DNA of 64,000 nucleotides from Citrus sinensis. Its lineage: Eukaryota; Streptophyta; Magnoliopsida; Sapindales; Rutaceae. The stretch lies in the NCBI RefSeq assembly GCF_022201045.2, contig NC_068558.1, positions 6,043,501 to 6,107,500 on the forward strand. Reading direction: 5' to 3'. Position 1 is the first letter of the stretch, and each line of letters opens with the position of its first letter. The notes beneath the pieces are model-generated. The model saw nothing but the letters and a program-made list of their open reading frames with translations. It did not search any database and was not told where the DNA came from. The position numbers and the translations under genes are program-made. Below are positions 1 to 64,000 of this stretch, piece after piece.

Positions 1-31
1 TTTATAAATATGCATTTTCTAACACTCAACA
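1..31 (-). repeat. 3' LTR of the Athila element (terminal 31 bp only)
   Basis: These 31 bases are identical to the outer end of the right-hand LTR (11078-11108) and end in CAACA, the inverted counterpart of the TGTTG at the other LTR edge. The remaining ~1.33 kb of this LTR must lie to the left of the window. Confidence 0.9.
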
Positions 32-66
32 CACCCCCCAACCAGCTTATTGCTAGTCCCTAGCAA
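32..66 (-). other. 3' polypurine tract with adjacent stem-loop
   Basis: On the minus strand a G-rich run, CTGGTTGGGGGGTG, abuts the LTR start TGTTGAG, the expected position of the plus-strand DNA priming site. Immediately upstream is a perfect hairpin with arms TTGCTAG (50-56) and CTAGCAA (60-66) around a 3-base loop. A second copy of this hairpin-plus-tract module lies at 1835-1874. Confidence 0.8.
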
Positions 67-1935: not shown

Positions 1936-2643
1936 TTACAAGCGGAGAGTTAAATCTAATTTGTACTTCTTACTGCGGCTACTGTTACCATCATTATGTG
2001 GATGCTCCAACACAAAGGTCCAGGGGTTTGGCTCCGGTTTATAAGCTTGTAACAGATCAAGTAGCTCATTAGCAGTGTGAGCACAAATAAAAAGTTTTTT
2101 CACATTAGAAGGAATGAAATAGTTTTTTATTGCATGGTTAAGAAATGCGATAAAGCCATCATAAAAATTATTGACATTTAACAAACTGATGGGTTTCTGG
2201 TGGATGTGCAGATGGGCCCAAGATGCTAGTGTGATAAGTGCCTCTAGTGTTGCAAGATCTCCTGGAAGGAAAATAAAAGCATCAGCATGATTAAGCATTT
2301 CAGTTATTCTTTCTTGCATACCTGAGACGACTAACTCTTCTCCAGTTGATGAGTCAGACGAACTGCCCAATAGTTTTAGAACTCTTGGGATGATGCCTAA
2401 CACTTGGCTGCCTCTGATAAAAGCTGCTTCTGAGACCATTTTCGATAACCCTCGATTACCTCCTCCATACACCAAGTGTAATTTTCTCGTTGCTATGCTT
2501 CGACCAAGATCTATGGCTGCCTCAACGAACTCTTTATGTTTGCCATAGGTAAATTCGGAAAGCACACAAATGTTCTTGAATTGTCTATTAGGAGTAGCTG
2601 CCATTGTGATACTTCGCAAAAATAATTTGTGAGTGCTTGACAA
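1936..2643 (-). CDS. LONELY GUY (LOG)-like protein carried by the retrotransposon
   Basis: A 235-residue intronless ORF homologous over nearly its whole length to plant LOG cytokinin riboside 5'-monophosphate phosphoribohydrolases, which release free cytokinin base from its nucleotide. The Rossmann-type core is clear: FKNICVLSE near residue 22, VYGGGNRGL at 58-66, MQERITEM at 109-116, then PGDLATLEA at 127-135, followed by an IHQKPISLLNV segment. In active enzymes the last motif is PGGxGTxxE. Here the second Gly is Asp, the third Gly is Ala and the final Glu is Ala, while Arg112 of the partner motif is kept; activity is therefore doubtful. Met14 is an alternative start. Plant LOG genes normally have several introns, so this looks like an RNA-derived copy. 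It lies between integrase and the 3' LTR on the element's coding strand and is fully open. Confidence 0.85.
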   Translation of the reverse strand: MSSTHKLFLRSITMAATPNRQFKNICVLSEFTYGKHKEFVEAAIDLGRSIATRKLHLVYGGGNRGLSKMVSEAAFIRGSQVLGIIPRVLKLLGSSSDSSTGEELVVSGMQERITEMLNHADAFIFLPGDLATLEALITLASWAHLHIHQKPISLLNVNNFYDGFIAFLNHAIKNYFIPSNVKKLFICAHTANELLDLLQAYKPEPNPWTFVLEHPHNDGNSSRSKKYKLDLTLRL

Positions 2644-2922: not shown

Positions 2923-3480
2923 CTATGGGTCGAGGATAGGCTTCCCATCCAGTTTTCTTATAAACTGGCAAACAGGATCGTTTATAGTCAAATTCCCGAG
3001 ACTATATCGTGCATGCTCTTTCTGGAATAATGGCCATAACTGGAGAATCGCTCCTTGCACATATCCACTGGGATGCGTTTCAAGAGACAAAATGATATCA
3101 TCCAATGACTCCTTATTCAAGCCATCCCTAATGAATTGAATTTTATCTTCCCTGTTATCAGACACCATTCCTAAAGAACATGGGTTTTTATTGCAACTCA
3201 TTCTGGCACACTTATGACAAGCAACAGAAATTCTTCGAGCTCGTCGTTTTCTTGCATAATTTCCTTTACCACAACCAGGCATGTATGCAATAAATTTTGG
3301 AGGTAACTCACCCGCCGATCGTACTTTTGCCTCAATTAACCAACGGATATCAGCAGGTATGTTATTCCTCATGAGTAATCGCATGCGTTCGGACCGAGCT
3401 TTATAGATCGTAAGGAGGGCATTCTGAGGAAGTGAAGGGAATCGCTTGTGAAGCTTTGCTAGAATCTCGTTTCTGTCCAT
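2923..3480 (-). CDS. Arg/Cys-rich accessory protein of the Athila element, 185 aa
   Basis: Uninterrupted ORF just downstream of the 77-residue ORF and 280 bases upstream of the LOG-like ORF. The first ~60 residues are mostly helical and charged. A basic stretch at about 76-83 (YARKRRARR) is followed at once by a cysteine cluster C88-x2-C91-x4-C96-x4-C101, a layout expected to bind zinc and nucleic acid. I cannot name a family with certainty. The basic-run-then-Cys-cluster layout recalls the small nucleic-acid-binding proteins of plant flexiviruses (carlavirus/mandarivirus type), but this is an impression from pattern, not an alignment. It is not the usual Athila env-like ORF: I see no membrane segment. 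Function unknown. Confidence 0.6.
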   Translation of the reverse strand: MDRNEILAKLHKRFPSLPQNALLTIYKARSERMRLLMRNNIPADIRWLIEAKVRSAGELPPKFIAYMPGCGKGNYARKRRARRISVACHKCARMSCNKNPCSLGMVSDNREDKIQFIRDGLNKESLDDIILSLETHPSGYVQGAILQLWPLFQKEHARYSLGNLTINDPVCQFIRKLDGKPILDP

Positions 3481-3622: not shown

Positions 3623-3856
3623 TTAAAATCGTCCTCTTATTGAATTTACCTCAAGCTCCAACTGGATGTCATAAACACTTCTCTCAATGTCTCTGAGTTG
3701 GCTTTCTAAACTCTCAACATAGGCTACTAACTCCGGTGGCTGTAGAGCCCAAATGCGATGTGTTTTACAAAATTGAATCAGCCGTTTGAGATTAGTTTTG
3801 ACACGTTGAAGTGGTTTAAGAATGTTCAGGAGGAACCGTCTAAGTAAGGTTCTCAT
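3623..3856 (-). CDS. small basic accessory ORF, 77 aa
   Basis: Open frame between the integrase end and the 185-residue ORF, same strand. The N-terminal ~35 residues are rich in Arg, Lys and Leu; the C-terminal half (from about residue 40) has a heptad-like pattern ending in an acidic stretch, suggesting a short coiled coil. I do not recognise a family. It may be a real accessory protein or a chance ORF; its position in line with the two longer accessory ORFs is the only support. Confidence 0.35.
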   Translation of the reverse strand: MRTLLRRFLLNILKPLQRVKTNLKRLIQFCKTHRIWALQPPELVAYVESLESQLRDIERSVYDIQLELEVNSIRGRF

Positions 3857-3977: not shown

Positions 3978-6900
3978 TCAATTCAAATTTGGTGGGTCAC
4001 TCAAATTTATTTCGGTGTCTTCTTCATGTGGTTGGTACTCTAGATATGGCTTTAATCTTTGACCATTAACTTTAAACGTGACACCATTCTTTGGGTCCTT
4101 AATTTCAATTGCCCCATGTGGAAAAACAGTATGTACAATAAATGGACCAGACCAACGAGAGCGTAACTTACCTGGGAATAGGTGCAAGCGAGAATTGAAT
4201 AAAAGCACTTTCTGACCTGGAGTGAAAGATTTTCTCATAATTTGCTTGTCATGGAAGACTTTCATTCGTTGCTTATAAATCTTGGCATTTTCGTACGCGT
4301 CATTGCGAATTTCTTCAAGTTCTGCCAGCTGTAATCTTCTTTCTGAGCTGGCTTGCTGCATGTCAAAATTGAATTTCTTGATGGCCCAATATGCACGATG
4401 CTCAAGTTCCACAGGTAGGTGGCAAGCTTTTCCATACACTAGCTTGTAGGGTGACATCCCAATCGGGGTCTTGAAAGCCGTTCTATATGCCCATAATGCA
4501 TCATTAAGTCTTAATGACCAATATTTTCTGTCCGGCCTCACCGTCTTTTCTAATATGTGCTTTATTTCTCGATTGGAGATCTCAACTTGGCCACTGGTTT
4601 GCGGATGATACGGAGTCGCCACTTTGTGTGTGATTGAATACTTTGTCAAAAGAGCTTTGAATGCTTTGTTACAAAAGTGGGCACCACCATCACTGATTAT
4701 TGCTCGAGGGAATCCAAAGCGTGAAACAATGTTGTTTTCAAAAATCCTATCACCACCTTGTGATCATTGGTTTTGCATGGAATTGCTTCTACCCATTTTG
4801 ATACGTAGTCAACAGCAACCAATATGTATTGATGGCCAAAAGATAGGGGAAAGGGTCCCATGAAGTCGATACCCCATACGTAAAAAATTTCAACCACTAA
4901 AATTGAATTTAATGGCATCATGTTCCTTCGTGTAATGCTCCTCATTCGTTGACACCTATCACATGAAGAACAGAAAGTGTAAGCATTTCGAAATATAGTT
5001 GGCCAATAGAAACCACATTGTAAAACTTTAGTCGCTGTTTTCTTAGCGCTGAAATGGCCTCCACAAGCTTGTTCATGGCAGAATGAAAGGATATTCGGAA
5101 TTTCACTTTCTGGGACGCATCGTCTAACAATTTGGTCTGCACAATACTTGAACAAATACGGGTCATCCCAAAAGAAATTCTTTATTTCTACAAAGAATTT
5201 AGCATTGTCTTGCTTGGTCCAATGCTCTGGAAGTTGACTTGTAACAAGATAATTCACGATGTCAGCATACCACGGTAATACTTCCACATTCATGAATTGT
5301 TCATTAGGGAATGACTCATTTAATGGTAATGGCTCTGTAGTTGTGTCAAAATGGAGACGAGAGAGGTGATCCGCCACAACATTTTCTGTACATTTTTTAT
5401 CTTTGAATTCCAAGTCAAATTCCTGCAAAAGTAACACCCAACGAATTAGTCTAGCTTTTGCATCTTTCTTTGTGAGAAGATATTTAAGAGCTGCATGATC
5501 TGTGAATATAATTATTTTACAACCAATGAGATAAGATCGAAATTTCTCTAATGCAAACACTACTGCTAGCATTTCTTTTTCAGTAGTTGAATAGTTCAAC
5601 TGTGCATCATTCAATGTCATACTAGCATAGTAAATGACATGGGGAATTCGATCAACTCTTTGTCCTAATACTGCTCCTACTGCATAATCAGATGCGTCAC
5701 ACATGAGCTCAAATGGTAAGCTCCAGTTCGGGGGCTGAATGATGGGTGATGATGTCAACAAATGCTTTAATTTTTCAAACGCAACAAGACATGAATCATC
5801 AAAGATAAAAGGTAGATCCTTAGCAAGTAAATTGCATAAGGGTCTAGAAACTTTGCTAAAATCTTTAATGAATCGTTTATAGAAACCAGCATGCCCAAGG
5901 AAAGATCTTACTTCTCTGACTGTTTTTGGTGGAGGAAGATTAGAAATGAGATCCACCTTGGCTTTGTCAACCTCAATACCTTTGCTCGAAATGATGTGAC
6001 CGAGAACAATACCTTGTTTTACCATAAAATGGCACTTCTCCCAATTTAAGACTAAATTCTTCTCGATACATCTCTGCAGAACTAGTGTCAGATGATGTAA
6101 ACATTGATCAAACGAATCACCAAAGACAGAAAAATCATCCATAAAGACTTCAAGGAATCGTTCAACCATATCAGAAAAAATGCTCAACATGCATCGTTGA
6201 AATGTAGCAGATGCATTACATAATCCAAATGACATTCTCCTATATGCAAATGTGCCAAAAGGGCAAGTAAAAGTGGTATTTTCTTGATCTTTTGGTGCTA
6301 TGGGGATCTGATTATATCCTGAATAGCCATATAGAAAGCAATAAAATTCATGTCCTGCTAATCTATCAAGCATTTGATCAATAAATGGTAAAGGAAAATG
6401 GTCTTTACGTGTGACAGAATTCAACTTCCTATAATCAATGCATACACGTCATCCTGTAGTCACTCTAGTGGGTATCAATTCATTATCGGCATTGGCAACT
6501 ACAGTGACTCCTGACTTTTTAGGGACAACTTGCACAGGACTGACCCATGAACTATCAGAAATGAGGTAAATGATACTTGCATCTAATAGCTTAAGGACTT
6601 CAGTTCTAACAACTTCTTTCATATTAGGATTTAACCGACGTTGCATTTCCCTAGTAGATTTAGCATTTTCATCGAGGTGAATGTAATGCATGCAGTCTAC
6701 TGGGTTTATACCTTTTATGTCTGCTATGGTCCATCCTAATGCCCCTTTGTGCTCTTTCAAAACATCCAACAACTTACCTTTTTGTTCGTCATTGAGGGAT
6801 GATGAGATGATTACCGGCAGAGTACTTTCTTCTCCCAAAAATGCATATTCCAGAGTGTTGGGTAATGGTTTGAGCTTGAGTTTCGGTGGTGATTCTGATG

Positions 6901-8140
6901 ATGGGATGAGTTTCTTCTCTGATGGTGCTAGTTGCTCAACTCTTGACTTCCATTTATTAGTGTCCATGGATGGTGCTGAGTCAAGTAAAGCGTTGACCTC
7001 ATCGACCGATCTGTCAATATCAAAATCCAAACCAAAGTGAGTTAAACATGTTTGTAAAGGATCATCACTAAGGTTTGAAATAAAAGTGTCATCAACTAAT
7101 GCTTCAATTAAATCCACATCAACAATTCCATCATCTGCATTGTGAGGTTGTTTGGCAATGTTGAAAATGTTCAGCTCCATAGTCATGTTGCCGAAGGACA
7201 ACTGCATATTTCCGGTCCTGCATTGAATGTGAGCATCCGCAGTTGCCAAGAAAGGTCGGCCTAGAATAATGGGGATGTGCTTCCTTGAATCCTGTATTGG
7301 TTGAGTGTCAATTACAATGAAATCAACAGGAAAATAGAACTTGTCTACCTGGATAAGCACGTCCTCCACAATACCACGAGGTATTTTCGTGGACCGATCT
7401 GCAAGCTGTAACACCACTGGAGTTGGGTGTAATTCTCCCAGTCCAAGTTTCACGAATACTGAATAAGGCAACAAATTTACACTAGCTCTTAAATCCAACA
7501 AAGCATTCTCAATTGTGTGGTTCCCTATGCTACATGAGATAGTGGGGGAGCCTGGGTCTTTGCATTTTAAAGGAATTTTATGTTGGAGTATAGAACTAAC
7601 GTTTTCTCTTAAAAATGCCTTCTTTTGAACATACATATTTCTCTTTTTAGTACAAAGGTCTTTAAGAAACTTGGCATAAGATGTAACTTGTTTAATAGCA
7701 TCAAGCAAAGGGATGTTAACACTTACCTGTTTGAAGATTTCGAGAATCTCACCTGTGGATTTTCCTTTTTTGCCTTTAGTTAACCTTTGAGGAAATGGAG
7801 GTTTGGGAACGTATTCTCGTGGGTTGGTTTCTTCTTTCTCCTCCGGTGATGATTCCTCAACATTCACAGGTACAATTTGATTTTCTTTTGTTACCGGCAT
7901 CTCCACTTTGTTGTCGACTTCTTTTCCTTTTCGCAAGGTCATGACTGTTTTAACCTCTCCATGCTGTTGCGGTGAACTGGTACTTGCTTCATGCACTCCT
8001 TTAGGGTTAGGCACTGGTTGACTTGAAAACTTACCTTTCTCAACGGTCATTGCCAAGGTCTGAACTGAAGAAGCAAGTTGTCCCACCATCTTCTCGAGGC
8101 TTGAAACTGATTGGGCTTGTGAGTTGAAGCCCGCTCTCAA
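3978..8140 (-). pseudogene. Athila pol: protease, reverse transcriptase, RNase H, integrase (broken)
   Basis: Order from the right: a charged linker, retropepsin (about 7490), RT with the FMDDFS box (about 6130-6150), RNase H with its Asp/Glu residues, the integrase zinc-binding region near 5090-4940, the DDE core, and a C-terminal domain ending at 3978. Lesions visible: the protease DLGA box reads DLRA; a TGA replaces an expected Trp codon at 6449-6451; the RT motif expected as FLDGYSGYN reads FLYGYSGYN, losing the first catalytic Asp; the reading frame shifts near 4745-4760 in the middle of the integrase core. The last 223 residues are open again in the shifted frame. The protein would replicate and integrate the element; this copy cannot. 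Confidence 0.9.
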
Positions 8141-9380
8141 TTCATTTCGTAGTCCATCAATGGTGCGGTTTTGTTACTCAATATAGAGTGAGTAAGATTC
8201 TTGAGATTCTGGAATGAATCCTCCCATGGTCTAGGTTGAGAGTAGTTCTGGTTCTGATTGTATGGTCTAAATGGGGGCTGAGAGGCTTGAGGAATTTGCG
8301 GAATTGGTTGCATTGGTGGAGCTGGAGCTGCTGGTCCATTCTGTTGGAATCCTTGAGACCATGAAAATTGGGGTGGTCTCTCCATCCAGGATTATATGTG
8401 TTGGAGTATGGGTTATAATTCGATGGTTTTCTTATTACACCTATGGCATTGGCTTGATCTGAGTATGAGTCATGGTCATGTGATTCTGTTGATTTAGCAG
8501 TCGATAACGATGCTATTTGTCGAGCAAGACCTTCAACCATCTCCTTGACTTCTTTGATTTCTGAAGTTGATTCGTCAATTTAAACCTCATTCACTCCTTT
8601 AATTCTTCTAGTAGTCCTGAGTGATCGACTCCGTTGTTGGGAATTATCTGTTTGTCGCTGGAAGAATTCTCAAATTTCTGATGCACTTTTTGACATTAGC
8701 TCTCCTCCACTTGTTGCCATTAGTCATTCTTGCACATTTGGTAGTAATCCCTCCAAAAAGTATTGGCATTAGTGCCATTTCTCGTACCCATGATGTGGAC
8801 ACTTCAAGAGTAGCCCATTGAATCGCTCCCATGTTTCGAAAAATTGCTCATCCTCTCTCTGGGTAAACTCCGAGATTTCCCTGCGAATAGCATTGGTTTT
8901 ATGCACTGGGAAATATTTATTCAAAAATTTAGTTACCATTTGTTCCCATGATGCAATGCTATTGGCAGGCAATGCATTAAGTCATGAACGAGCTCTATCC
9001 TTTAAAGAAAATGGGAATAATCTGAGTTTAACATCATCATCTGAAAAATTCTCGTATTTAAAAGTTTGACAAATAGCATGAAAATCATTCAGATGATTAT
9101 ATGGGTCCTCATTTTCTAAGCCATAGAATGTGGGGAGACAATTTAGCACACTAGGTTTTAGTTCAAAACTTCTAGCAGCTATATTTGGGTATCTTATACA
9201 TGATATGCTCAAATTAGCTAAGGGACTGAAGTAGTCCTTAAATGGCCTCTCCTGTGGTGCTTGTAAATCCATTCCAAATTTATTTTTAATGTGCTTTTGT
9301 GTGCGAAGTGTTTTCTCAAGTTCAAGGTCTATAGGTTCAAAATTGGGTAATAATGACATTCGACCATGCATGCAAAACAA
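8137..9380 (-). pseudogene. Athila gag (broken)
   Basis: The N-terminal part (from 9380) and the capsid-like core around 9000-8770, with its WLNALP-type and FETWERF-type motifs, are clearly Athila gag. Breaks: TGA in place of a Trp codon at 8982, TAA at 8769 after YEKWH, further in-frame stops near 8702 and 8650, a frameshift near 8370 and another near 8150 at the junction to pol. The Gln/Pro-rich segment at 8385-8180 is the linker typical of this family. The true start may be at one of several Met codons near 9380. Confidence 0.85.
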
Positions 9381-9748
9381 ATAAAATAAAAAATAAAGAT
9401 GGGAACAAAATAAATAAAAATAAAAAAGATGGAGAAATTATGATACTAACCTTATTACGCTATTACAAACTTTCTATAAAAATACACAAAAACAAATACG
9501 TGAAATAAATTAAATAAAAATAAATTAATAAGATAAAAAAAATTACAAAGAAAAATAAATTCAAAATTAAATTACAGAATTTTAAAGAAGAGAGAAAATA
9601 AATAAATAAAATTCTTAGCTCAAAATGTAAATTCACTCTTTTTTTCTTTTTTTTTCTTTTTACAAGAAAACAATTAAAAGAAATTATTCACAAAAATTAA
9701 TTCTATGAATTAAAATTACTTACCTCCTTGGCAACGGCGCCAAAAACT
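9381..9748. other. 5' leader of the Athila element
   Basis: AT-rich untranslated leader between the 5' LTR and gag on the minus strand. It includes the primer binding site at 9730-9742; no other feature seen. Confidence 0.6.
9730..9742 (-). other. primer binding site, tRNA-Asp type
   Basis: On the minus strand TGGCGCCGTTGCC begins a few bases after the LTR end, matching the start of the primer site used by many Athila elements (complement of the 3' end of tRNA-Asp). The bases that follow (AAGG) diverge from the usual GGGG. Confidence 0.8.
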
Positions 9749-11108
9749 TGTTGTGCAAATTTTAATGTACTCGCAAGCGCACGAATCTATTGTAGTATAG
9801 ATCAATGGTGACGAGTGTCGATCCCACGAAGAGGTGGATTTTAATTATATATAGAATTAATTTTGTAAATGGATAGTTGGATTTATGGTGGAAATGATTT
9901 GGAATATGCTAATACTTAAATTAAAATGGCGAGAATAAATTCTAAAATTGGAATTGCAATGGAGAGAATAAATTGAAGAGAAAATCTATTAAATTGACGT
10001 ACTTGGGTATCTGGATCCGTATCAACATGCATCATGGGCTAAATAATTCGTATTAATGCCAATTAAATCATGAGAGGGGAATCCACACCTCATGAACCAC
10101 GCTCTAATCAATATGGTGCTAAGGGCTTATCGTGCCAAATAATAATAACCTTATACTAGAGAGCCGGTGTAACCAATGTGGTATCTAGACAAGATTATTA
10201 TTATTTATCGACGATAAGTCAAAACATCCACAAAAACTAGAGGGGAAGAGAAAATAAATTTACCAAATTAAGCCCATGACACATGTTGAGACTTCACCTT
10301 CAACCCAAGCTTGAAAGAAAATTAGCCACTCATAATTGAACTAGGGGCAAAATGAAAATTTATTAAAATACGAAGAAAATACAAGATGGAGAGAGAATTA
10401 CAGAAAACAGAGTTCAAAAATGGATTCAGAGATATCAAATTAGGAGGGGAAGAGGCCCTTTTTATAGATACATGGAGTAAATCATGGCCATCGGATTAAA
10501 AACAGTTTGGATGCTCAAGATTACGCCACGTCATCAGTCAACAGTCCACGGTTTGACCACGTGGATGAACAGTAATACGATTTGACTCGGATGAACAGTA
10601 ACGCGGTTTGATTGAAAATAATCCTGTGTGATGCATGTACCGTACGCGAGATTTTTCATCCACTGATATGCTGCCACGTCATCATCAACAGTACATAAGA
10701 ATTTTAGCCCAACAGGATCGTGACACCTCATCAGTCAATGCCACATCATCGGTCAATGGCACGTCATCGATCCGTCTATGCGAACAGTGTTGTGAACAAT
10801 AACGTAGTTAGTACCGTACACGTGAATAGTACCGTACATATGAATAGTGCCATTTTTCATTTTATGCTCCTCCTAAGATTTTCGACCGTCCTGAGTTCAA
10901 AAGTGATGTCCGTTTTGCCGTCTGATCTCTCCTTTATTGTGAAATGACTATAATGCCCCTAAAATACATAAAATACGTAATTAAAATAAAACACATGTAA
11001 TTAAATCACAAGAAGGTTAAATACATAAAAGTAAGAGTTGTTAGTAAGACTTGAAATGTAAAATGACGGTTTTCTCCTTTATAAATATGCATTTTCTAAC
11101 ACTCAACA
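9749..11108 (-). repeat. 5' LTR of the Athila element
   Basis: About 1,360 bp, starting TGTTG and ending CAACA on the plus strand. The left edge lies just outside the primer site; the right edge is fixed by the identity of 11078-11108 with window positions 1-31. It contains several imperfect internal repeats around ATGAACAGTA and CACGTCATC (10510-10850), which may be regulatory. Confidence 0.88.
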
Positions 11109-13132
11109 ATAGAGACTTAGCTTTAGTTAATACCATTGAAAGAGTATTTCCCAATGCAAAACATTTGTTATGTAGATGGCATATAAAAAAAAATGTAATT
11201 GCAAAGTGCAAGAAATTGTTCACAATAAAAGAGATATGGGAGAAGTTTATGATGAGTTGGAATGTATTGTTACTTTCTTCCAGTGAAGATGAATTTATTA
11301 CTCGCCTCAATGCTCTGCAGCAAGATTTTATATCCTATCCACAAACAATCGAGTATGTGACATCTACATGGTTGGATAAATACAAGGAAAATTTTGTTTC
11401 AGCATGGACATACAAGATCATGCATTTCGGAAACTTAACAACAAATAAGTATAATTTTATTTTCATGCACCACTTCATAGTTAGCTTATCAATTTAAAAT
11501 TAATATATATTAATAAAATTTTAATTTTTAGTACTAGGGTGGAAAGTTTACATTCGAGGCTTAAAAACGAGCTTGGCACGAGTCAAGGTAATTTTGAGAC
11601 ATCTTGTACAAAGATCCATTCTTTATTATAATTATTACACACGAACATCAAAGTTTCATTTGAAAAAAGTTTGACAATAGTACAACATCCATTCAAACCT
11701 GCTGAATTTAAAGAGCTTCAAGGCTTTATTTCTATAGCTGCATTACAAATGGTGTTAACTGAGTCGAAGCATGCTAATTCCATTGGTATTAATGTGTCCG
11801 CGTGTGGTTGTACAATTCGTAGTACGCACAGTTTACCTTGTGCTCATGAGATTGTAGAATATAAAAAGGAAAGTCGACCTATACCTTTAGAATGTATTGA
11901 TTCACATTGGAAGAAACTTGACTTGATTCGTAATCATAATAAGAGAAAGGCAGAGATGAGTTACTGACCGATATTTGACTTGATTGCCAAACGCTTTAAT
12001 GAGAATGATGATGATACGAAGTTACATATTCTACAAAAGTTGACAGAAATTGCTAATCCTCATTCTACATCTCTTATAGAACCAGAAGCTAAGAAAAATA
12101 CACGTGGTCGACCAAATTCAAAAGCTATTGCATCAACCCGTCATGACCCATCTGCTTTTGAGATTGTTTTATCAGGAAAAGAAATTTGTTCGCCTACAGT
12201 TGCATTCATGAGACCTGCAGTGAAAGTTAATGGAAATAAGCAACCAAAGCAAAAGGTATTATTTTAATTGTATTAGAATTATTATATATATTAGCAAAAG
12301 ATATTGTTTTAATTGTATTAGCATTATATATACACACGCACATACACTTATTTCTTAACTATAGTTTGTATTTTCACATTTTTTTCCTCATATTTGTTGC
12401 TAGGTGTATAAAAAAAATCGTTCAAGTCAAATCCATTTGTTAATGAATTTCTAGTTGCATTACAATCATACATTCATCATATTAAAGATGTCGCACCTGA
12501 TGTAATTGTGGGTTTAGAGCGATAGCCGACTTAATGGGTTTTGGTGAGAATGGATGGTTACAAGTGAGGAAAGATATGCTAAATGAGTTGCATTTGAAGA
12601 TGGAGCATTATAGCCATTTATATGGGACATATGAGAGACTCAATGAATTAATTCATGCAATATCATATTTTGAGAACTGTCCTGGATCTGACAAATGGAT
12701 GACAATGCCTGACATGGGACATCTTATTGCATCAGCCTACAACGTTGTGGTATTCCACTTATCGATGAAGCAATGCCTTACCTTCCTTCCTCTTAGGTCT
12801 AAGTCAATACCTACAGATTCTCGTAAAGAGATTGCTATTGGTTTTGTAAATAACAATAATTTTGTAGAGGTATTTTTTTAATACTTTTCAATTTTTATGT
12901 TGAATTTAATAAGCAATTCTACTAATTGAAATTAATCAAACATATGTAGGTGTTCTTGTTACCAAGCCATCCTATCCCCCCTGTAGCAATCAATTGGCAA
13001 ATATTTCACAGTTTTTGTGCCAAAGGATGGGAGACGATATATAATCATCGCATACAACATTTCAAGGAAATAATTGGTGGTGGCGTAGCTACAAAAGAAG
13101 TAATAATAGATGTTGACAGCAATTATCAATAG
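11109..13132 (+). pseudogene. Kaonashi-type MULE: transposase with C-terminal OTU domain (broken)
   Basis: The frame picks up at the Athila insertion point with a MULE/FAR1-like transposase core (LCRWHIKKNV, 11165-11200), continues with a SWIM-like zinc segment, CGCTIRSTHSLPC (11800-11845), then a linker ending in TRHDPSAFE (12140-12165), and finally an OTU cysteine-protease-like domain (12515-13110) with WMTMPDMGH and TFLPLRS motifs. Such transposase-OTU fusions mark Kaonashi MULEs. Damage: the N-terminus is cut off by the Athila insertion and lies outside the window; there are frameshifts near 11500-11640, a stop at 11965 and stops near 12525. The Asp...Cys loop of the OTU active site is missing: sequence runs from VIVGL straight into AIADLMGFG. 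Introns may explain some of the gaps. Confidence 0.8.
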
Positions 13133-23796: not shown

Positions 23797-24340
23797 TTTT
23801 AATTTTACAATTATTTAAAATAAGTTAATTAAATTATAAACATACTTTTTAATAATAAGATTATGACTATTAGGTCTTTTATTTGCTCATTGTTTCAAAC
23901 TTGCTTTGATTTTATCAACAAATTAAGTATATCATGTATTAAGATTAAAAATTAATTAAGGGTTCATAATTTATAAAAATAGTTTAGCTAATTAAATTTA
24001 TATTTATCCTTTTATGTAATTTCAAATAACAATAGAAGTATGGAAATTATTACAAAAGTGGGACGTTATAGTCTTACTATTATTTAAAATAAATAAATTA
24101 AATTATAAACATACTTTTAATAATAAGATTATGATTATTAGGTCTTTTATTTGGTCATTGTTCAAAATTGCTTTGATTTTGTCAATAAATTAATTATATC
24201 ATATATTAAGATTCAAAATTAATTAAGGATTCAAAATTTATAAAAATATTTTAGTTAATTAAATTTATATTTATCCTTTTATGTAATTTCTAATAACAAT
24301 AGAACAATGTCTATGATTACAAAAGTGGGGCGTTATACGG
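23797..24340. repeat. tandem duplication, two ~265-bp units
   Basis: The unit at about 23800-24072 is repeated at about 24073-24338 with roughly 10 percent differences, including the shared stretches AATAATAAGATTATGA and TATTTATCCTTTTATGTAAT and an end of the form ACAAAAGTGGGxCGTTATA. It lies in AT-rich spacer; the rest of 23040-24460 has no other feature I can name. Confidence 0.8.
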
Positions 24341-38756: not shown

Positions 38757-39368
38757 TCACTTAGGTGAGGTAATTGAGGCATAACTGTTAACCAGAGCTA
38801 AACCATTGCTAGTCAAATGTGCAACGTTTGAAATCTGTCTCCGTACAGTAGCCTTAACATTCCCATTCATGGATTTCCTAGAAAAGCCATCCATGCAAGT
38901 ATCCTCATTCGTTAATGCAGCACTCACCCATGTTTGTACATTATTCATTTGGAGGGCAAAATTACTGCGCTCATTACGTCCCATTTCACTGATTGAATTT
39001 TGGAGCTCATCAACTGCGTCCCTCAACTGATCAACGCAATCGTACAAGGCTGCAGCTTCTCTAGGATTTAAGCCCTGGCTTTTGGACAGTTTGTTCATTG
39101 TTGTTGAAGTAACAAGCGCAGTTTTAAGCGCCACGGAGAGGGCTGTGCTGGCTAATAATTTGGGGCTCGCCTGGATTTTGGTTGCATATCCGGAAAGAGT
39201 GGTGATGCACAAGTCAGGGTAAGTTGTGACACGGCATGAGGTTTTGATGAACTGGGTGTTTGTTTCACTCTGAACCGGCCTAGCCGCTGAGCAGTAAGTG
39301 TTCATGTAAGTAGCAAATTGAATGAAGATGAGAAGAGTTAGTGCGTGGGAAAAGGGTGAGCCTTTCAT
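38757..39368 (-). CDS. pectin methylesterase inhibitor, array member 1
   Basis: Single-exon gene for a 203-residue secreted protein of the invertase/pectin methylesterase inhibitor family. Such proteins form 1:1 complexes with pectin methylesterase in the cell wall and so control pectin stiffness. A signal peptide (about residues 1-28) precedes the four-helix domain. The conserved cysteines Cys45, Cys54, Cys111 and Cys157 are present, as are the QTWVSAALTNEDTC motif and the C-terminal LTSNGLALVNSYA motif. I chose the Met at 39368 because it directly precedes the signal peptide; an upstream in-frame Met at 39416 would place 16 polar residues before it. The TATA box lies 73 bases upstream. Inhibition of invertase cannot be excluded from sequence alone. 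Confidence 0.9.
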   Translation of the reverse strand: MKGSPFSHALTLLIFIQFATYMNTYCSAARPVQSETNTQFIKTSCRVTTYPDLCITTLSGYATKIQASPKLLASTALSVALKTALVTSTTMNKLSKSQGLNPREAAALYDCVDQLRDAVDELQNSISEMGRNERSNFALQMNNVQTWVSAALTNEDTCMDGFSRKSMNGNVKATVRRQISNVAHLTSNGLALVNSYASITSPK

Positions 39369-39440
39369 GTTTGCTCTGTGTGTGTGTTTTGTAGCTGGAG
39401 AGTGTGATAAATACACTAAGTGCAGGGAGAGATCTTCGAA

Positions 39441-46890: not shown

Positions 46891-47202
46891 TGTTAAGGAA
46901 GCTCACACTTGTAGTGTAGCCAACAGAGCAGAGGATGATAGCAGCAGGATCAATCAGTTATGCATTGATGATGTGGCATACCACGTCATGACTGGTGATT
47001 ATGAAATTATGTGTACACGTGATTGATTAGTTAAAGCTGTTATATTCAGCTGTTGAGCTTAACTTCAGTACTTGTATATAAGGAATAATTGAACACACAT
47101 TACGCGTGTATTTGATTAATAAAAGCATAAGAAGTTTTCTCAGATCTGTTTTCATTTTCTCTTATTTTCTAAGTAACCAAACATCATTTTCATTCTTCAA
47201 CT
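46891..47202 (+). repeat. 5' LTR of the copia element
   Basis: 312 bp from TGTTAAGGAAGC to CATTCTTCAACT, with a TATATAAGG promoter box about two thirds along. The end is set by the target duplication and the primer site that starts at the very next base. Confidence 0.92.
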
Positions 47203-47214
47203 TGGTATCAGAGC
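47203..47214 (+). other. primer binding site, initiator tRNA-Met
   Basis: TGGTATCAGAGC directly abuts the LTR, the standard copia primer site. Confidence 0.92.
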
Positions 47215-47225
47215 CACATCTAGTA

Positions 47226-48290
47226 ATGGCATCAGTAAATCTTGTTTCATCTTCTGCTCCAGTTCTTAACACAACTGTTAACTCAGCAATTTCTTCATTT
47301 ACGTTCAACACTCCAGTTAAGCTTGATCAATCCAACTTTCTGATATGGAGATCTCAAGTTTTGGCTTCAATTCGAGGTAACAGACTTGAAAAGTTCATAG
47401 ATGATTCAGCAACACCACCTCCCTCTCACATAGCTCAAAGGATTGGTGATGATATCAGATCTGTGGAGAATCCAGAATCTGTAATTTGGAGATCACAAGA
47501 TCAAGTACTTCTTGGATGGCTGCTCTCATCAATGAGTGAAGGTATTATTAGCTTAGTGTTTAATCTGGAAACTTCTGTTGAGGTGTGGAAGGCAATTGAA
47601 ACACAATTTGGATCACAATCTAAATCTAGACTTTTACATTTGAGATACATGATGAACTCAACTAGGAAAGATGATTTGAAAATCAATGATTATTTCATTA
47701 AAATAAAGTCTATAGCTGATAACATGGCTGCAGCAGGAAGTGCTTTAAACAATAATGATTTAATTCTACATATACTCTCTGGTTTGGGACCAGAATATAA
47801 TTCTGTAGCCACTTATATCACTGGACAAGTAGGTGTTGGAAAGATGAATGTTAATGAGGCTAATGCCATGCTTTTAACTCAAGAAGCAAGGATTGAGCAA
47901 CAAGCTCAAATGCTTGCTAGTGCAGATGTGAAACAGAATTTTGAAGCCAATCTTGTTCTGAATAGGGGATTTAAGAAAGGAAATATGTCTGGTGGTAGAA
48001 ACTTTAGTGGTTATGGATACAATACTGGAAATAATGGAAGTTTTGGAACTAATCACTACAAAGGAAGCTATGGAAGCGCTGGATATGGATCTGCTGGTAA
48101 TGGGGATCCTCAGTACAAAGCTTATCAAAGTGATAATCAAAGAGGTGCTGGAGGCAATTGGAATCCAAATGCTGGTAATGGAGGCTATAATAATGGTAGA
48201 TCATCTGGGCAGATTAAGCCTCAGTGGAATAGTTCTAAGCCAACTTGTCAAATATGTCTCAAGACTGGACACACTGCAAACATCTGCTGA
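47226..48290 (+). pseudogene. copia gag, ending in a TGA at the zinc knuckle
   Basis: 354 codons from the Met at 47226. The retrotransposon gag domain includes LDQSNFLIWRSQVLASIRG and LLHLRYMMNS, followed by a Gly/Asn/Tyr-rich stretch and the nucleocapsid knuckle CQICLKTGHTANIC. The next codon is TGA (48288-48290), where related copia proteins usually have Trp. The same frame continues on the far side (KLTEFINSG...) straight into the protease. It may be a point mutation or a readthrough site. Confidence 0.85.
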
Positions 48291-48368
48291 AAACTTACAG
48301 AGTTTATTAACTCTGGAGCATACAGACCACCACCAAACAGGAATCCAAAAACTGCATATTTAGCTAAC

Positions 48369-51300
48369 ATGGAGGGACCTTCTGATGCAAACTGGTACCT
48401 GGACAGTGGAGCTACACATCACCTGATAAATGACATGAACAACATGCATGTTTCTGAAAGCTTCACAGGTATTTCTAAGCTCATTGTTGGTAATGGTGCT
48501 GGTTTAGACATAACTCACTTAGGCAGTGCAGTTCTGAAAATGCATGAAAATGAAGATAATGCCTTATCAATACTTAAGCTAAATGACATACTCCTTGTAC
48601 CACAAATCACCAAAAACCTTATTAGTATTTCCAGGCTGACCAAAGATAATAATATAGTGGTTGAATTCACTGACAAATTTTGTTTTGTGAAGGACAAGAT
48701 GAAGAATGTGGTAATATTGCAGGGCAAGGCTGAAAAGAGTCTCTACAGATTGCTATTGGTGTCTTCAAATAAAACTCTTATCACACCATCTGGTCAGAGT
48801 TACAGTGCTAATGTTGAGTCAACCGAGCCATTAACTCCTCTGTCAATGTTTTCAAGTGTTAGTTCTGATTTCAAAAATAAAACAAACTGCTTACATACTT
48901 CAGCAGTTCCCTGTATAAATTCTGAGTGTTTGTTAAGCACCTCTGTATTTCATCAAAGGTTAGGTCACCCATCCTTTCATGTCTTAAATCATGTAATTAA
49001 AACATCTTCATTTGTTAAGACTATCAATGGAAACAGAACCTTTGACTCTTGTGATGCTTGTAAGATGGGAAAGATGCACAGATTACATTTTTCTGTCACT
49101 GAAACAAAAACAAAGTTTCCATTAGAAATATTACACACTGATTTATGGGGTCCATCTCCTGTGATCTCTCCTCAAGGATATAGATATTATGTAAGTTTTG
49201 TTGATGATTGCACCAGGTTCACTTGGATATTTCCATTAAAAACAAAAGATGAAACTCTTCATGTCTTTAAAATCTTCAAAACTCAAATCGAAAAACAACT
49301 TAGCAGACCCATTAAATGTCTTCAATCTGATTGGGGGGGAGAGTTCAGATCCTTTGTAAACTATCTTCTTGCTGAGGGAATCCAATTCAGACACTCATGT
49401 CCCTATACTCACAATCAAAATGGTTTAGTGGAAAGAAAACACAGACACATCACTGAACTTGGGTTAACATTACTTGCACAAGCTGCCATGCCTCTTAAAT
49501 TCTGGTGGGATTCTTTTCACACAGCGGCCTATATTATAAACAGATTACCCACTCCTGTATTGAGCATGAAATCTCCTTATGAATCTCTATTTCAACTTTC
49601 ACCAGATTACAAGTTTCTAAGAGTATTTGGGTGCTCATGTTTCCCTTTCCTTAGAGAGTATAATAAACACAAGTTTCAGTTTCATACATCCAAATGTGTC
49701 TTTCTGGGATATAGCCCTTTACACAAAGGCTATAAATGCTTACACCCTTCTGGTAGAACTTATATAGCTAGTCATGTTTTGTTTAATGAATCTTCCTTTC
49801 CATATTCATCACTTTTTCATGTTTCTTCTTCTGGAAATCAATCTTCAGATTTTCAGTATAATCTTCTCAAACATTTTTCAGTTCCAGTTTCCAATAGCAA
49901 TCAAGATACTCTTGAAGCCAATGCAGCTGATAATGACCATCATTCTCCTCTGTATTTTTCTCATAACACACCAGTAAACATCCTTCCCACTACCTCACTC
50001 ACACAACCAGCTTCTGATTCAAACTCTTCCATACAGCCAAATAATCACATTCCTCAATCAAATCAGCAAAATCCATCTTCCTCATCAGTTCCACCACAAC
50101 AGTTATCACCACCAACACAAGTCCAACCACTTATAGCTACACATAATATGATCACCAGAGCTAAAGCTGGAATCTTCAAGCCAAAAGCTTTCATTGCCAA
50201 CTATAACAGTCTGGAACCATCCACCACCTCTGAGGCATTATCTGATCCTAAGTGGAAGGCAGCTATGCAGGAAGAATATGATGCCCTCATGAAGAACAAT
50301 ACCTGGAGCTTAGTGCCTATATCTTCTTCTTATAAACCAGTTGGATGCAAATGGGTTTTTCGAACTAAGTATAACACTGATGGTTCAATCTCCAAGTACA
50401 AAGCAAGACTGGTTGCAAAGGGTTTTCACCAAACTGCAGGTATCAACTATTCAGAAACCTTCAGCCCTGTAATAAAATCTTCCACAGTCAGAGTTATCCT
50501 GAGCTTAGCCGTTATAAAAGAGTGGAAGGTAAGGCAAATCGATGTAAATAATGCCTTTCTAAATGGAGAACTCTCTGAAGATGTGTTTATGATACAACCA
50601 GAGGGCTTTGAGTCTAAGGAAGGCTACATTTGCAAGCTCAATAAAGCTCTATATGGGCTGAAACAAGCTCCAAGAGCTTGGTATGAAAAGCTCAAAGGCT
50701 GTCTAACTGACTGGCAGTTCATCAATTCTAAAGCTGACACTTCTCTCTTCATCAACCATGATACAAGAGGATTAATCATTGTCCTTGTCTATGTCGATGA
50801 CATTCTGATTACAGGACCTGATTCTGATCTACTGGAGGTGTTCATTACTAAACTTAGCAAAATGTTTGCTCTTAAAGATTTGGGGCTGGTTGCTTATTTT
50901 CTTGGGGTAGAAGTGTGTTATACTACTCAGGGAATGCATCTTTCTCAAACAAAATATATCAAAGATTTATTGAGTAAGGCTTCAATGCTGAATTGCAAAG
51001 GTTCTGACACACCCTTTAGCATTGGTTTCAAGCTTGAAAAAGCTGTACAAGGTTCTCTTGGGCAAGAGTTTGAGGATCCCACAAGGTACAGAAAGTCTGG
51101 TTGGTGGCCTTCAATATCTTATTCTTACCAGACCTGATATTGCCTATTCAGTACATAAGCTCAGCCAATATCTCAGTGCTCCCACACTTCAACACTGGTT
51201 GGCCTGCAAGAAAGTTCTTAAATATCTTCAAGCAACAATCACCTATGGTCTTCACATTTAAAAGGAGGGAATACTTGAAACCACTGGATTGACTGGTTAC

Positions 51301-51909
51301 TCAGATGCTGATTGGGCATGCGATGCTGATGATCGCAAGTCCATTGGAGCTTATTGCATATATCTTGGTAACAACCTAATCTCTTGGTCATCTAAAAAGC
51401 AACCTATTGTTGCTAAATCCAGCACAGAGAGCGAATACAGAGCTCTATCTTCAGCAAGCTCAGAATTGTCATGGCTGCAATCTTTATTCTCTGAGCTTAA
51501 GATTGTGAAGTTACCTCCTCCAGTTCTTTGGTGTGACAACCAAAATGCTGGTGCCTTAGCTAGGAATCATGTTTTCCACTCTAAGTCAAAGCACATTGAA
51601 TTAAATGTTCACTACATCCGAGACAAAGTGCTTAAAAAGGAGCTGGAAATTAGATATATTCCCACAGAAGAGCAAGTTGCTGATGTGTTTACTAAACCTC
51701 TGTCATTTCCTAAATTCAGTTACTTTCGCTCCAAGCTCAATGTTGTTAATAGACCATTGAGCTTGAGGGGGGATGTTAAGGAAGCTCACACTTGTAGTGT
51801 AGCCAACAGAGCAGAGGATGATAGCAGCAGGATCAATCAGTTATGCATTGATGATGTGGCATACCACGTCATGACTGGTGATTATGAAATTATGTGTACA
51901 CGTGATTGA
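48369..51909 (+). pseudogene. copia pol: protease, integrase, RT, RNase H (frameshifted)
   Basis: Protease active site WYLDSGATHH; integrase zinc motif (HQRLGHPSF ... CDACKMGK) and DDE core (TDLWGP, QSDWGGEF, NGLVERKH); RT from about 50230 with DVNNAFLNGEL and YVDDILITG; RNase H with SDADWA and STESEYRAL. One extra A in the run at 51092-51094 shifts the frame before the RT C-terminus (expected RYRSLVGGLQYL). A TAA at 51259-51261 probably replaces a Lys codon. The final 206 codons are open and run into the 3' LTR. Confidence 0.92.
51764..51773 (+). other. polypurine tract of the copia element
   Basis: GAGGGGGGA lies directly before the 3' LTR start TGTTAAGG, as needed to prime the second DNA strand. 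Confidence 0.85.
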
Positions 51910-52085
51910 TTAGTTAAAGCTGTTATATTCAGCTGTTGAGCTTAACTTCAGTACTTGTATATAAGGAATAATTGAACACACATTACGCGTGTATTTGATT
52001 AATAAAAGCATAAGAAGTTTTCTCAGATCTGTTTTCATTTTCTCTTATTTTCTAAGTAACCAAACATCATTTTCATTCTTCAACT
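51774..52085 (+). repeat. 3' LTR of the copia element
   Basis: 312 bp; I find no difference from the 5' LTR. Followed by the target duplication GGAAG. Confidence 0.93.
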
Positions 52086-55194: not shown

Positions 55195-55803
55195 TTAGGG
55201 AGATGGAGGGTTACTGCCAGCGGCATAACTATTTATGAGAGCCAAGGCGTTGCTCGTCAAATGTGCAACTTTAAGAATATGCCTCCTGATCATCGTCTTC
55301 GTATATCCGTTCAAGGGCCTACCTTGAAGCCCATCCACGCAAGTATCTTCATACGTTAACGCTGCGCTTACCCATGTTTGGACATCACCCATTGTGAGCC
55401 AAAAATTCGAGTTCCTGATGTGACCCAGTTCGTCCATAGAATCTTGGAGCTCATCTATTGAGTCACCGATCACCTCAATGCAATCTGCCACTGCCCCTGC
55501 GGTCTCCCTCGGGATCATGCCGGGGATTCTCGACATCTTGACCATCATTCTCGACGTTGATTTTGTGGCTTTAAGGGTTATGTTGAGAGCTGTGTTGGCT
55601 AATGTTTTGGGGTTGCTTTTGATTTTGGCTGCATAGACTGAGAGTGAGCGGTAGCACAACCTGCGATAGATTGTGCCACTACATGATGTTCTTATGTACT
55701 CTATGTTTGAATTATCTGATGGGTTTGAGGCTAAGTTGGTGGAGAATTCAAGGAGAATAATGAGCAGGGCTACTAGTGTATGCCTCAAAAATGAACCTTC
55801 CAT
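55195..55803 (-). CDS. pectin methylesterase inhibitor, array member 4
   Basis: Single-exon gene, 202 residues, secreted PMEI-family protein. Signal peptide (hydrophobic core about residues 8-20), cysteines Cys41, Cys50, Cys108 and Cys155, QTWVSAALTYEDTC and a C-terminal LTSNALALINSYA. Between the first two cysteines it reads GTIYRRL where the neighbours have a Tyr-Pro-x-Leu pattern (TTYPDL, SRYPAL); the Pro is lost. Otherwise intact. TATA box about 65 bases upstream. Same strand and gene layout as the other members, consistent with tandem duplication. Confidence 0.9.
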   Translation of the reverse strand: MEGSFLRHTLVALLIILLEFSTNLASNPSDNSNIEYIRTSCSGTIYRRLCYRSLSVYAAKIKSNPKTLANTALNITLKATKSTSRMMVKMSRIPGMIPRETAGAVADCIEVIGDSIDELQDSMDELGHIRNSNFWLTMGDVQTWVSAALTYEDTCVDGLQGRPLNGYTKTMIRRHILKVAHLTSNALALINSYAAGSNPPSP

Positions 55804-55867
55804 TCTCTTTCTCTCTCTCTCCAGAAAGAAATAGATTCGTATAGTGAGTTTTGTAGAGTAAGGGTGG

Positions 55868-55874
55868 CTTTATA
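55868..55874 (-). promoter_or_regulatory. TATA box of PMEI member 4
   Basis: TATAAAG on the minus strand, about 65 bases before the start codon. Confidence 0.5.
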
Positions 55875-62649: not shown

Positions 62650-63267
62650 CTAAGGCTTCTGGGTGACTGCTGCAGCTTGGTGCCTAGCGGCGAATCGATT
62701 AACCAAAGCAAGAGCGTTACTAGTGACTTGGGCAACATTTGTGACCCTTCTCCTGATCGCAGCCTTTACATTTCCATCCATGAAACGACCATCAAAATCA
62801 TCTAAGCAAGTGTTCTCATCAGTTAGTGCGGCACTAACCCAAGTCTGCACACTACTCATGTGCCACGTAAAGTCCTGGCCGACAGCTCGTCCCACATGGC
62901 CAAGCTCCCTGACGGATTGACTAAGTCGGTCTACGCCGTCACCCATGTTCTCTATGCAGTCTTTCACAGCTAGGAACTCTCTCTTCTTGATTCCCCTAAC
63001 TTTAGTCAGCTTGCCCACAAAAGCAGCAGCTGACCGTGCCCTGCTTAAGCTCACTGACAAGGCAGTTACAGCAAGCTGATGCTCATTTCGGATGGCATGA
63101 CCATAACCTGAGAGGCACTGAACGCATAACGCTGGATATCGAGAGGCTCTACACGAATTTCTGATAAAGTTTGCGGGAGTGGAATGCCCGGGAATGGCAG
63201 AATTTGCCATTCCAGCCAAGTAAAGGTGGAAGAAGAGAGCTAGTGAGACGAGGGAAAGCTTAGCCAT
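62650..63267 (-). CDS. pectin methylesterase inhibitor, array member 5
   Basis: Single-exon gene, 205 residues, secreted PMEI-family protein. Signal peptide about residues 1-23. Cysteines Cys39, Cys48, Cys104 and Cys154 are at family positions; there is an extra Cys51 three residues after the second. QTWVSAALTDENTC and TSNALALVNRFA are present. The protein is more basic than its array neighbours, including an RGIKKRE stretch where the others have Pro-Arg-Glu. TATA box about 70 bases upstream. Probably inhibits cell-wall pectin methylesterase; target not predictable. Confidence 0.9.
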   Translation of the reverse strand: MAKLSLVSLALFFHLYLAGMANSAIPGHSTPANFIRNSCRASRYPALCVQCLSGYGHAIRNEHQLAVTALSVSLSRARSAAAFVGKLTKVRGIKKREFLAVKDCIENMGDGVDRLSQSVRELGHVGRAVGQDFTWHMSSVQTWVSAALTDENTCLDDFDGRFMDGNVKAAIRRRVTNVAQVTSNALALVNRFAARHQAAAVTQKP

Positions 63268-63336
63268 ATATCTTGGTGCAACAGAAAGACAGACTACTAT
63301 TATTGAAAGAAGAAATGGATTAAATGATGGGAATTG

Positions 63337-63344
63337 TTTATATA
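63337..63344 (-). promoter_or_regulatory. TATA box of PMEI member 5
   Basis: TATATAAA on the minus strand, 70 bases before the start codon. Confidence 0.55.
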
Positions 63345-64000
63345 GAACTCAAAAGGCCGTTGCCCATCTTCTTCAAAAATTAAAAGAAAATGCCATTGCG
63401 TGTCTCCTTTTCCTTAGCTCCTGGTACATTTAAATCTCTTTGTGCTCCTTTAATTTATTTATCTCACTCCAAACGGTGGCATGCAATTAAAAGCTTCGAT
63501 ATTTACTTTTCATTTCCTTAAATCTTCTTTCTATGAATAAAGATATTTCTTGGCGTGCGTGTAATCCGTGTGCCTAACCTACCATCATTTAGCTCCAACA
63601 CGTCACTGGAGTATCATCATCCAAAGAAATGATTAAGTTTGGGACAGTAGCATAATAAAATTAAATGCAAGATTTGGCAACCAAGGATAATAGTATACAC
63701 TGGACAATATATGATCTAACCACAGTCTACCAATATACAAAATAAATATCTAACTAATTAAAGTCTTGATCTTGTCATCTAAACGTAAATGTACATCATC
63801 TAACTGACCTATCCACAAACTGATACTTGAAATAATTTAGTAGGGATTGGAATTTGGAAGGTTGAAGATTTTGTAATGGGCTCCACACCTCAATACTGTA
63901 TTTAATGCACCAACTTTTGGGGATACAGATTGATGGCTCTTGCGTTAAATACACACATACCGTTGTTAAGTGTTATATACAAGCAAGTCACTGTCTCGAT
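63345..64000. other. upstream region of PMEI member 5
   Basis: AT-rich flank to the window end; no gene recognised. Confidence 0.5.

Follow-up and report, generated by a model that had tools for sequence, protein, structure and literature searches.

A Ty3/gypsy retrotransposon at the start of the analysed stretch of Citrus sinensis DNA (64,000 nucleotides, hereafter the window) was found to carry an intact LONELY GUY (LOG)-fold open reading frame (ORF) as a regular cargo of its family, the product of which shows an altered catalytic motif, a conserved C-terminal tail and a low dN/dS. Judging from its residues and tail, the element LOG is probably a LOG enzyme put to another use. The explanation that we prefer, and to which we give about an even chance, is that a rosid Ty3/gypsy lineage captured a plant LOG and kept it as a non-catalytic, EAR-tailed adaptor for corepressor docking.

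In the ORF listing of the window, the LOG-fold frame is open from stop to stop at 1936-2649 on the minus strand (237 aa), and the portion starting at its first ATG (Table 1) contains no internal stop; the span of 1936-2643 given in the first-pass annotation differs from the latter only by codons ahead of the ATG. The product matched Pfam PF03641 (E 1.1e-26; 94 bits, cut-off 27) and TIGR00730 (121.3 bits, cut-off 96.35), and phmmer aligned it with AtLOG3 (2a33) at 7e-42. The equivalog cut-off of NF058542 was missed (92.5 versus 300 bits), which is weak evidence because the intact-motif proteins P0338 (109.8 bits) and P0358 (132.3 bits) missed it as well. An AlphaFold2 model (mean pLDDT 78.8; residues 194-222 below 50) matched 2a33 and 1ydh with TM scores of 0.92-0.95, normalised by target. 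These structures of AtLOG3 (At2g37210) and AtLOG8, respectively, have the same fold and were the best PDB matches by both sequence and structure; the best named protein matches came from Citrus x changshan-huyou. The open frame, the PF03641 and AtLOG3 matches and the structural match thus bear out the intact, intronless LOG-family ORF that had been read from the letters. The Citrus host genes L053, L089 and L090 are split (by eye), consistent with the contrast drawn there with intron-bearing host LOGs. Compared with plant LOGs, the element LOG is distinguished by the lack of introns, its location inside an LTR element and its LxLxLxL tail, and in the Citrus element families also by a changed PGGxGTxxE motif.

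On the minus strand, the element is arranged in the order of gag-like pieces, protease-like region, reverse transcriptase (RT), RNaseH, integrase, a 77-aa ORF, a cysteine-rich protein (CRP), LOG and LTR, with about 1.9 kb of A+T-rich DNA separating LOG from the polypurine tract and 3' LTR. Its LTR pair, target-site duplication, primer-binding site and polypurine tract (the latter two by eye), together with the RT-RNaseH-integrase order, are those of a Ty3/gypsy element. The LTR pair, target-site duplication and domain order also confirmed that the LOG ORF lies inside both LTRs, between integrase and the 3' LTR, on the coding strand; the 3' boundary had been rightly inferred although only 31 nt of the 3' LTR, which as a whole occupies G000:C3:6042181-6043531, fall within the window. 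Neither the extra ORFs nor the gag-like fragments, which are broken in this copy, matched the ATHILA ORF domain of Pfam. The primer-binding-site-like sequence is presumably of the tRNA-Asp type. The two LTRs are 96.8% identical (K2P 0.0257, with 34 differences over 1351 aligned bases), and at a substitution rate of 1.3e-8 per site and year, which may be slower in woody plants, the insertion would be about one million years old, or older at such a slower rate.

Table 1. Features of the LOG-bearing element in the window.
Feature	Position	Strand	Remarks
3' LTR, first 31 nt in window	1..31	-	Remainder outside window, G000:C3:6042181-6043500
Polypurine tract ahead of 3' LTR	about 32-42	-	By eye
C-terminal LxLxLxL (EAR-like) codons and stop	1936..1959	-	Tail low-confidence/disordered in model, residues 194-222
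LOG-fold accessory ORF, 222 aa	1936..2604	-	PGDLATLEA replaces PGGxGTxxE; C-terminal tail SRSKKYKLDLTLRL
CRP, 185 aa, basic stretch and cysteine cluster	2923..3480	-	Relative of carlavirus nucleic-acid-binding protein
Short ORF, 77 aa, integrase-CRP interval	3623..3856	-	No Pfam match
Protease-like, RT, RNaseH, integrase region	3978..8173	-	At least one stop and at least one frame change; protease by eye
Gag-like pieces	8181..9437	-	By position; fragments without Pfam match
Primer-binding-site-like TGGCGCCGTTGCCAAGG	9726..9742	-	Adjoins 5' LTR, by eye
5' LTR, 1360 bp	9749..11108	-	LTR pair comparison
Target-site duplication ATAGA, 5 bp	11109..11113	.	Second copy just outside window, beyond 3' LTR

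Joining the flanks across the element, with the target-site duplication counted once, gave one open frame. The element sits inside this frame (window 11109-11300 and L084 1-81), which looks like that of a MULE/FAR1-type transposase. A host exon or an assembly artefact was ruled out by the LTR pair, the target-site duplication and the open empty-site frame. Elsewhere in the window, 300-nt identical direct repeats surround gag- and pol-like ORFs at 46891-52073, presumably a young copia-type LTR element; three similar-looking ORFs in one orientation (38757-39440, 55195-55869 and 62650-63348, minus strand) are, we assume, probably invertase/pectin methylesterase inhibitor paralogues; and two 177-nt direct repeats, 90% identical and 267 nt apart from start to start, lie in an A+T-rich stretch at 23894-24337.

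A search of the host genome (300 Mb, 11 contigs) for further copies, as proposed in the first-pass annotation, returned at least 150 genomic LOG copies with 94-100% identity to the window copy (the best 150 of 2104 candidates), and AtLOG3 as the genome query brought up a second family, B, which comprises L031-L048 together with the interrupted L050 and shares about 72-73% identity with the window copy. Of the 83 LOG-bearing locus rows, 82 have CRP sequence upstream of LOG on the same strand, the exception being the host gene L053, and removal of L053 and two duplicate rows left 80 distinct LOG and CRP elements; CRP coverage was below 90% in L004, L052 (duplicate L054), L063 and L066. The 77-aa ORF was present in 76 of the 83 rows, with about 54% identity between families A and B. 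In the opposite direction, LOG was found downstream of CRP in at least 40 of the first 60 of 150 CRP rows listed, which is a lower bound because the 209 LOG positions used for scoring do not include all known rows; four of the 20 remaining rows were retrieved, and three of them contained LOG, whereas L085 had none within the retrieved stretch. Among the 83 distinct element LOG loci, 73 have a full-length, stop-free LOG, a proportion biased towards intact copies because the loci were chosen as best matches, and L087 was counted among the 10 non-intact loci only because its retrieved stretch ends early. For residue and codon comparisons, sequences with a stop, a length not a multiple of three or an incomplete match were dropped, giving a LOG set of 73 and a CRP set of 54 out of 90 loci. 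The 17 loci outside the LOG set comprised L053, L084, L085, L089 and L090, which are not element LOG copies, L054 and L055, which repeat L052 and L051, and 10 broken or cut element copies; L049, L060 and L063 (86-88% identity) are among the 73 but belong to neither family A nor family B.

The occurrence of LOG at the same place in 80 distinct elements established it as element cargo, as had been surmised, and as shared by many copies. Family members lacking the ORF had been named beforehand as a counter-indication; L085 shows no LOG within its retrieved stretch. A one-off processed LOG insertion was ruled out by this shared position; and a one-off insertion or chance capture in a single copy, which the intronless ORF and the LOG-less CRP copy L085 might suggest, is exceedingly improbable given that the 80 elements span two families that have diverged from each other as well as an old lineage, and that the dN/dS described below is low.

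In the LOG of C. glutamicum, the residues proposed to be catalytic are Arg99 and the Glu that closes PGGxGTxxE, Glu122, and the prenyl site is lined by Met96, His97, Lys100, Glu125 and Trp129, according to the available text of PMC4979012. The corresponding positions were counted in the 73 intact Citrus copies including the window's own, a best-scoring rather than a random sample. Met96, Arg99, Glu121 and Trp129 were retained in all 73 copies. The window LOG, however, reads PGDLATLEA where PGGxGTxxE with its catalytic Glu would be expected, and the Glu122 position was occupied by Ala in 71/73 copies, by Thr in one (L002) and by Glu in one (L060). Gly116 was changed to Asp in 73/73 and Gly118 to Ala in 70/73, and within the prenyl site His97 was replaced by Gln (73/73), Lys100 by Ile (71/73) and Glu125 by Thr (73/73). 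In L060, which shares 88% identity with the window copy, the motif is PGDLATLEE and the catalytic position is occupied by Glu; this copy nests inside the Citrus clade of the LOG tree, as a back-change to Glu would place it.

A genome-wide search for the pattern PGGxGT(x)EE gave three hits, namely the host gene L053 and the old broken copies L051 and L052, while the reversed-pattern control gave none; the hits are not a census of host LOGs because introns cut the host motif, falling inside or after it in L053, L089 and L090 (by eye). L051 and L052 show CRP matches and, by eye, integrase-like remnants, that is, a second lineage of such elements with the canonical LOG motif. PGGxGTLEE was present in 109 of the 120 L052 relatives listed (of 916), with five not located and six deviating. 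In the LOG alignment A1, Arg99 was nearly invariant, and Lys100 and Glu125 were changed in the canonical-motif rows too, save P0358. LOG relatives elsewhere have kept the canonical motif; in the copy-rich Citrus families it is changed.

Since the proposed catalytic Glu is Ala in the window copy, its function as a cytokinin activator is doubtful, and the cytokinin activation originally read into it was not borne out; the retained Arg99, Glu121 and Trp129 could nevertheless leave it some hydrolase activity, whether residual or altered. An active cytokinin-activating enzyme that drives host division and thereby aids the element in meristems or the germ line would agree with the LOG fold, the retained Arg99, the PGGxGTLEE kept in the listed relatives and in two old copies of the genome, and a companion resembling carlavirus CRPs, one of which has been tied to a proliferation-linked transcription factor (PMC8839810, in the part available). 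The Ala at the catalytic position in 71/73 intact Citrus copies and the changes of the prenyl-pocket residues His97, Lys100 and Glu125, two of which (Lys100 and Glu125) extend to the canonical A1 rows other than P0358, render such an enzyme unlikely. Of the two consequences envisaged in the first-pass annotation, a change of hormone balance through cytokinin is doubtful for the window copy, and use of the fold for another purpose fits better.

Selection was estimated by NG86 on codon alignments as pair means, and the values are point estimates from best-scoring copies. For LOG, dN and dS were 0.0181 and 0.0837 within family A (52 copies), 0.0026 and 0.0118 within family B (18 copies), and 0.1583 and 0.7474 between A and B; the last pair gave a dN/dS of 0.212, the figure of about 0.21 being the answer to the earlier call for such a ratio among element-borne copies. 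The CRP ratios were 0.280 within A (37 copies), 0.194 within B (17 copies) and 0.252 between A and B. The LOG ratio indicates that the element LOG is under purifying selection. Both families lack the catalytic Glu, and by parsimony the constraint therefore acted after its loss. The high similarity of copies within a family is what an unselected passenger, persisting only through family youth, would leave; the divergence of A from B (dN 0.158, dS 0.747) and the intact frame in 73 of 83 distinct loci (best matches) make a passenger very improbable.

The LxLxLxL end was found in all 73 intact Citrus element LOGs. LxLxL ended 85 of 120 proteins listed (of 705) and 71 of 120 L052 relatives listed (of 916); many of the misses were shorter or differently ended models, others had a changed Leu, and among the listed L052 relatives of 205-235 aa the end was present in 71/80. 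In A1 without P0358 and L052 (37 rows), the tail pattern, in which V, M, I and F were allowed for the first and third Leu, was present in 36 rows, and at least three Lys/Arg within the eight residues before the tail were likewise found in 36; family B, which has two Lys there, shows a weaker cluster. Pairwise identity in A1 was 0.75, 1.00, 0.89 and 1.00 at the Leu columns, as compared with 0.40 in the linker and 0.62 in the core. The tail was absent from the host genes L053 and L090 and from the Xanthoceras protein P0358. In plants, LxLxL EAR motifs bind TOPLESS, as stated in the accessible part of PMC10942257. The element LOG tail is EAR-like and a candidate TOPLESS docking motif, although LxLxL is a short and common motif, which weakens this reading.

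The LOG fold could instead serve as a decoy for nucleotides or cytokinin nucleotides, or it could partner Gag or CRP structurally, with the Leu tail acting as a dimer or packing element rather than as an EAR motif. The retained Arg99 and the low dN/dS are compatible with this, as is the AMP-bound P. aeruginosa LOG 5zbk, which in the aligned stretch differs from the apo form 5zbj by Glu to Ala at the same place, a change presumably made to trap AMP. Considering that phosphate-loop glycines are changed (Gly116 to Asp in every copy, Gly118 to Ala in 70/73) and that the tail is low-confidence in the model with its alternate Leu residues conserved, we regard this alternative as rather improbable. 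Compared with cytokinin activation, the better fit is an accessory protein of LOG fold that is kept by selection and may be nuclear and recruit TOPLESS.

The CRP encoded next to LOG resembles the carlavirus nucleic-acid-binding proteins (PF01623, PF05515) in having a basic stretch followed by a Cys cluster. In the CRP set A2, Carla_C4 (PF01623) matched 25/26 and Viral_NABP (PF05515) 22/26 sequences at E 0.01 or better; several scored above the Pfam cut-off, and the window CRP fell below it (16.3 versus 20.9 bits). The Cys spacing, C-x2-C-x4-C-x3 or x4-C (by eye), differs from the finger C-x2-C-x12-C-x4-C quoted for a carlavirus in the available text of PMC8839810, where carlavirus CRPs appear as silencing suppressors that bind nucleic acids, and that of one virus is associated with higher expression of a proliferation-linked transcription factor. 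The CRP structure model (mean pLDDT 54.7) was too poor for fold comparison, and scans of viral contigs with P0338 (Populus-type LOG) and P0177 (CRP) yielded no relative. Named CRP relatives came from Citrus, Xanthoceras, Acer, Populus and Rhamnella. The CRP may have passed from virus to element or from element to virus.

In a LOG tree of 36 proteins, in which AtLOG3, AtLOG8 and one Citrus protein were the only three host LOGs, 30 element-type rows grouped at 98/96 apart from these hosts, with P0358 as their sister (94/90, long branch). The Citrus Glu-loss clade was supported at 100/100, and L052 grouped with rows of further plants. The tree that had been suggested as a check thus united the element-type LOGs of Citrus, Populus, Malvaceae and other plants in one clade; named LOG relatives were from Populus, Reevesia, Diplodiscus and Xanthoceras. 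LOG-type and CRP-type proteins have longest contigs of equal length in two cases, 8723 bases (P0138, P0295) and 4511 bases (P0167, P0261), an indirect indication of LOG-CRP linkage outside Citrus. The location of the Populus and Malvaceae LOGs in elements is likewise indicated indirectly, by multi-copy clusters, these two shared longest-contig values and one paper. There may have been a single capture before the rosid lineages parted, or transfer between lineages.

In our preferred explanation, a rosid Ty3/gypsy lineage would have taken up a plant LOG, in the simplest case through a single capture of a spliced copy, capture through RNA being suggested because the element LOG has no introns. 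The gene has been kept downstream of integrase and ahead of the 3' LTR, where it adjoins the ORF for a cysteine-rich nucleic-acid-binding protein of carlavirus type. In the copy-rich Citrus families the proposed catalytic Glu and prenyl-pocket residues are lost, and the fold, the ribose-binding Arg and the tail are retained; their LOG would no longer free cytokinin bases. It may act as an adaptor with the LOG fold that perhaps binds nucleotides, and its EAR-like tail would dock a TOPLESS-type corepressor and thereby damp host transcription to the benefit of the element.

The presence of LOG in Citrus gypsy elements is not new, since PMC9289625, in the part available, already lists gypsy consensuses with a LOG (YgdH) domain for Citrus sinensis and C. 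clementina and, under a looser filter, for P. trichocarpa, citing Steinbauerova 2011; the earlier belief that no plant LTR retroelement with such a gene had been described is thus not supported. Those consensuses very probably represent the same family, and the accessible text reports the domain alone, with no mention of residue loss, tail, selection or CRP neighbour. The literature listings examined contained no mention of the residue loss, tail or CRP neighbour; in their available parts, PMC7264820 lacks the words cytokinin, LOG and citrus, and PMC7145672, PMC6317226 and PMC11593424 describe no LOG ORF in an LTR element. The common clade, the LxLxLxL tail, the loss of Glu under low dN/dS and the carlavirus-type neighbour are added here. 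An orchid gypsy element with an ORF for an AlkB-type RNA demethylase likewise carries a host-type enzyme as an extra ORF; the orchid protein is active in vitro according to the part of PMC9289625 at hand, whereas the element LOG, known from sequence, lacks its proposed catalytic Glu.

For annotation, many of the 120 matches listed that are called 'cytokinin riboside 5'-monophosphate phosphoribohydrolase' are near-identical to the transposon ORF, and one cluster, P0002, contains 705 member sequences. The extra ORFs of plant LTR elements are mostly without known domains, as far as the available text of PMC9289625 reports; the element LOG is an extra ORF whose fold is known, which occurs in many copies and which combines a docking motif open to testing with a partner of viral character. 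It is conceivable, if rather a long shot, that the virus-type CRP and the EAR-tailed, catalysis-lost LOG form a nuclear module that recruits TOPLESS and reshapes host transcription or hormone response for the spread of the element. If true, this would represent a transposon-borne effector made from a repurposed hormone enzyme.
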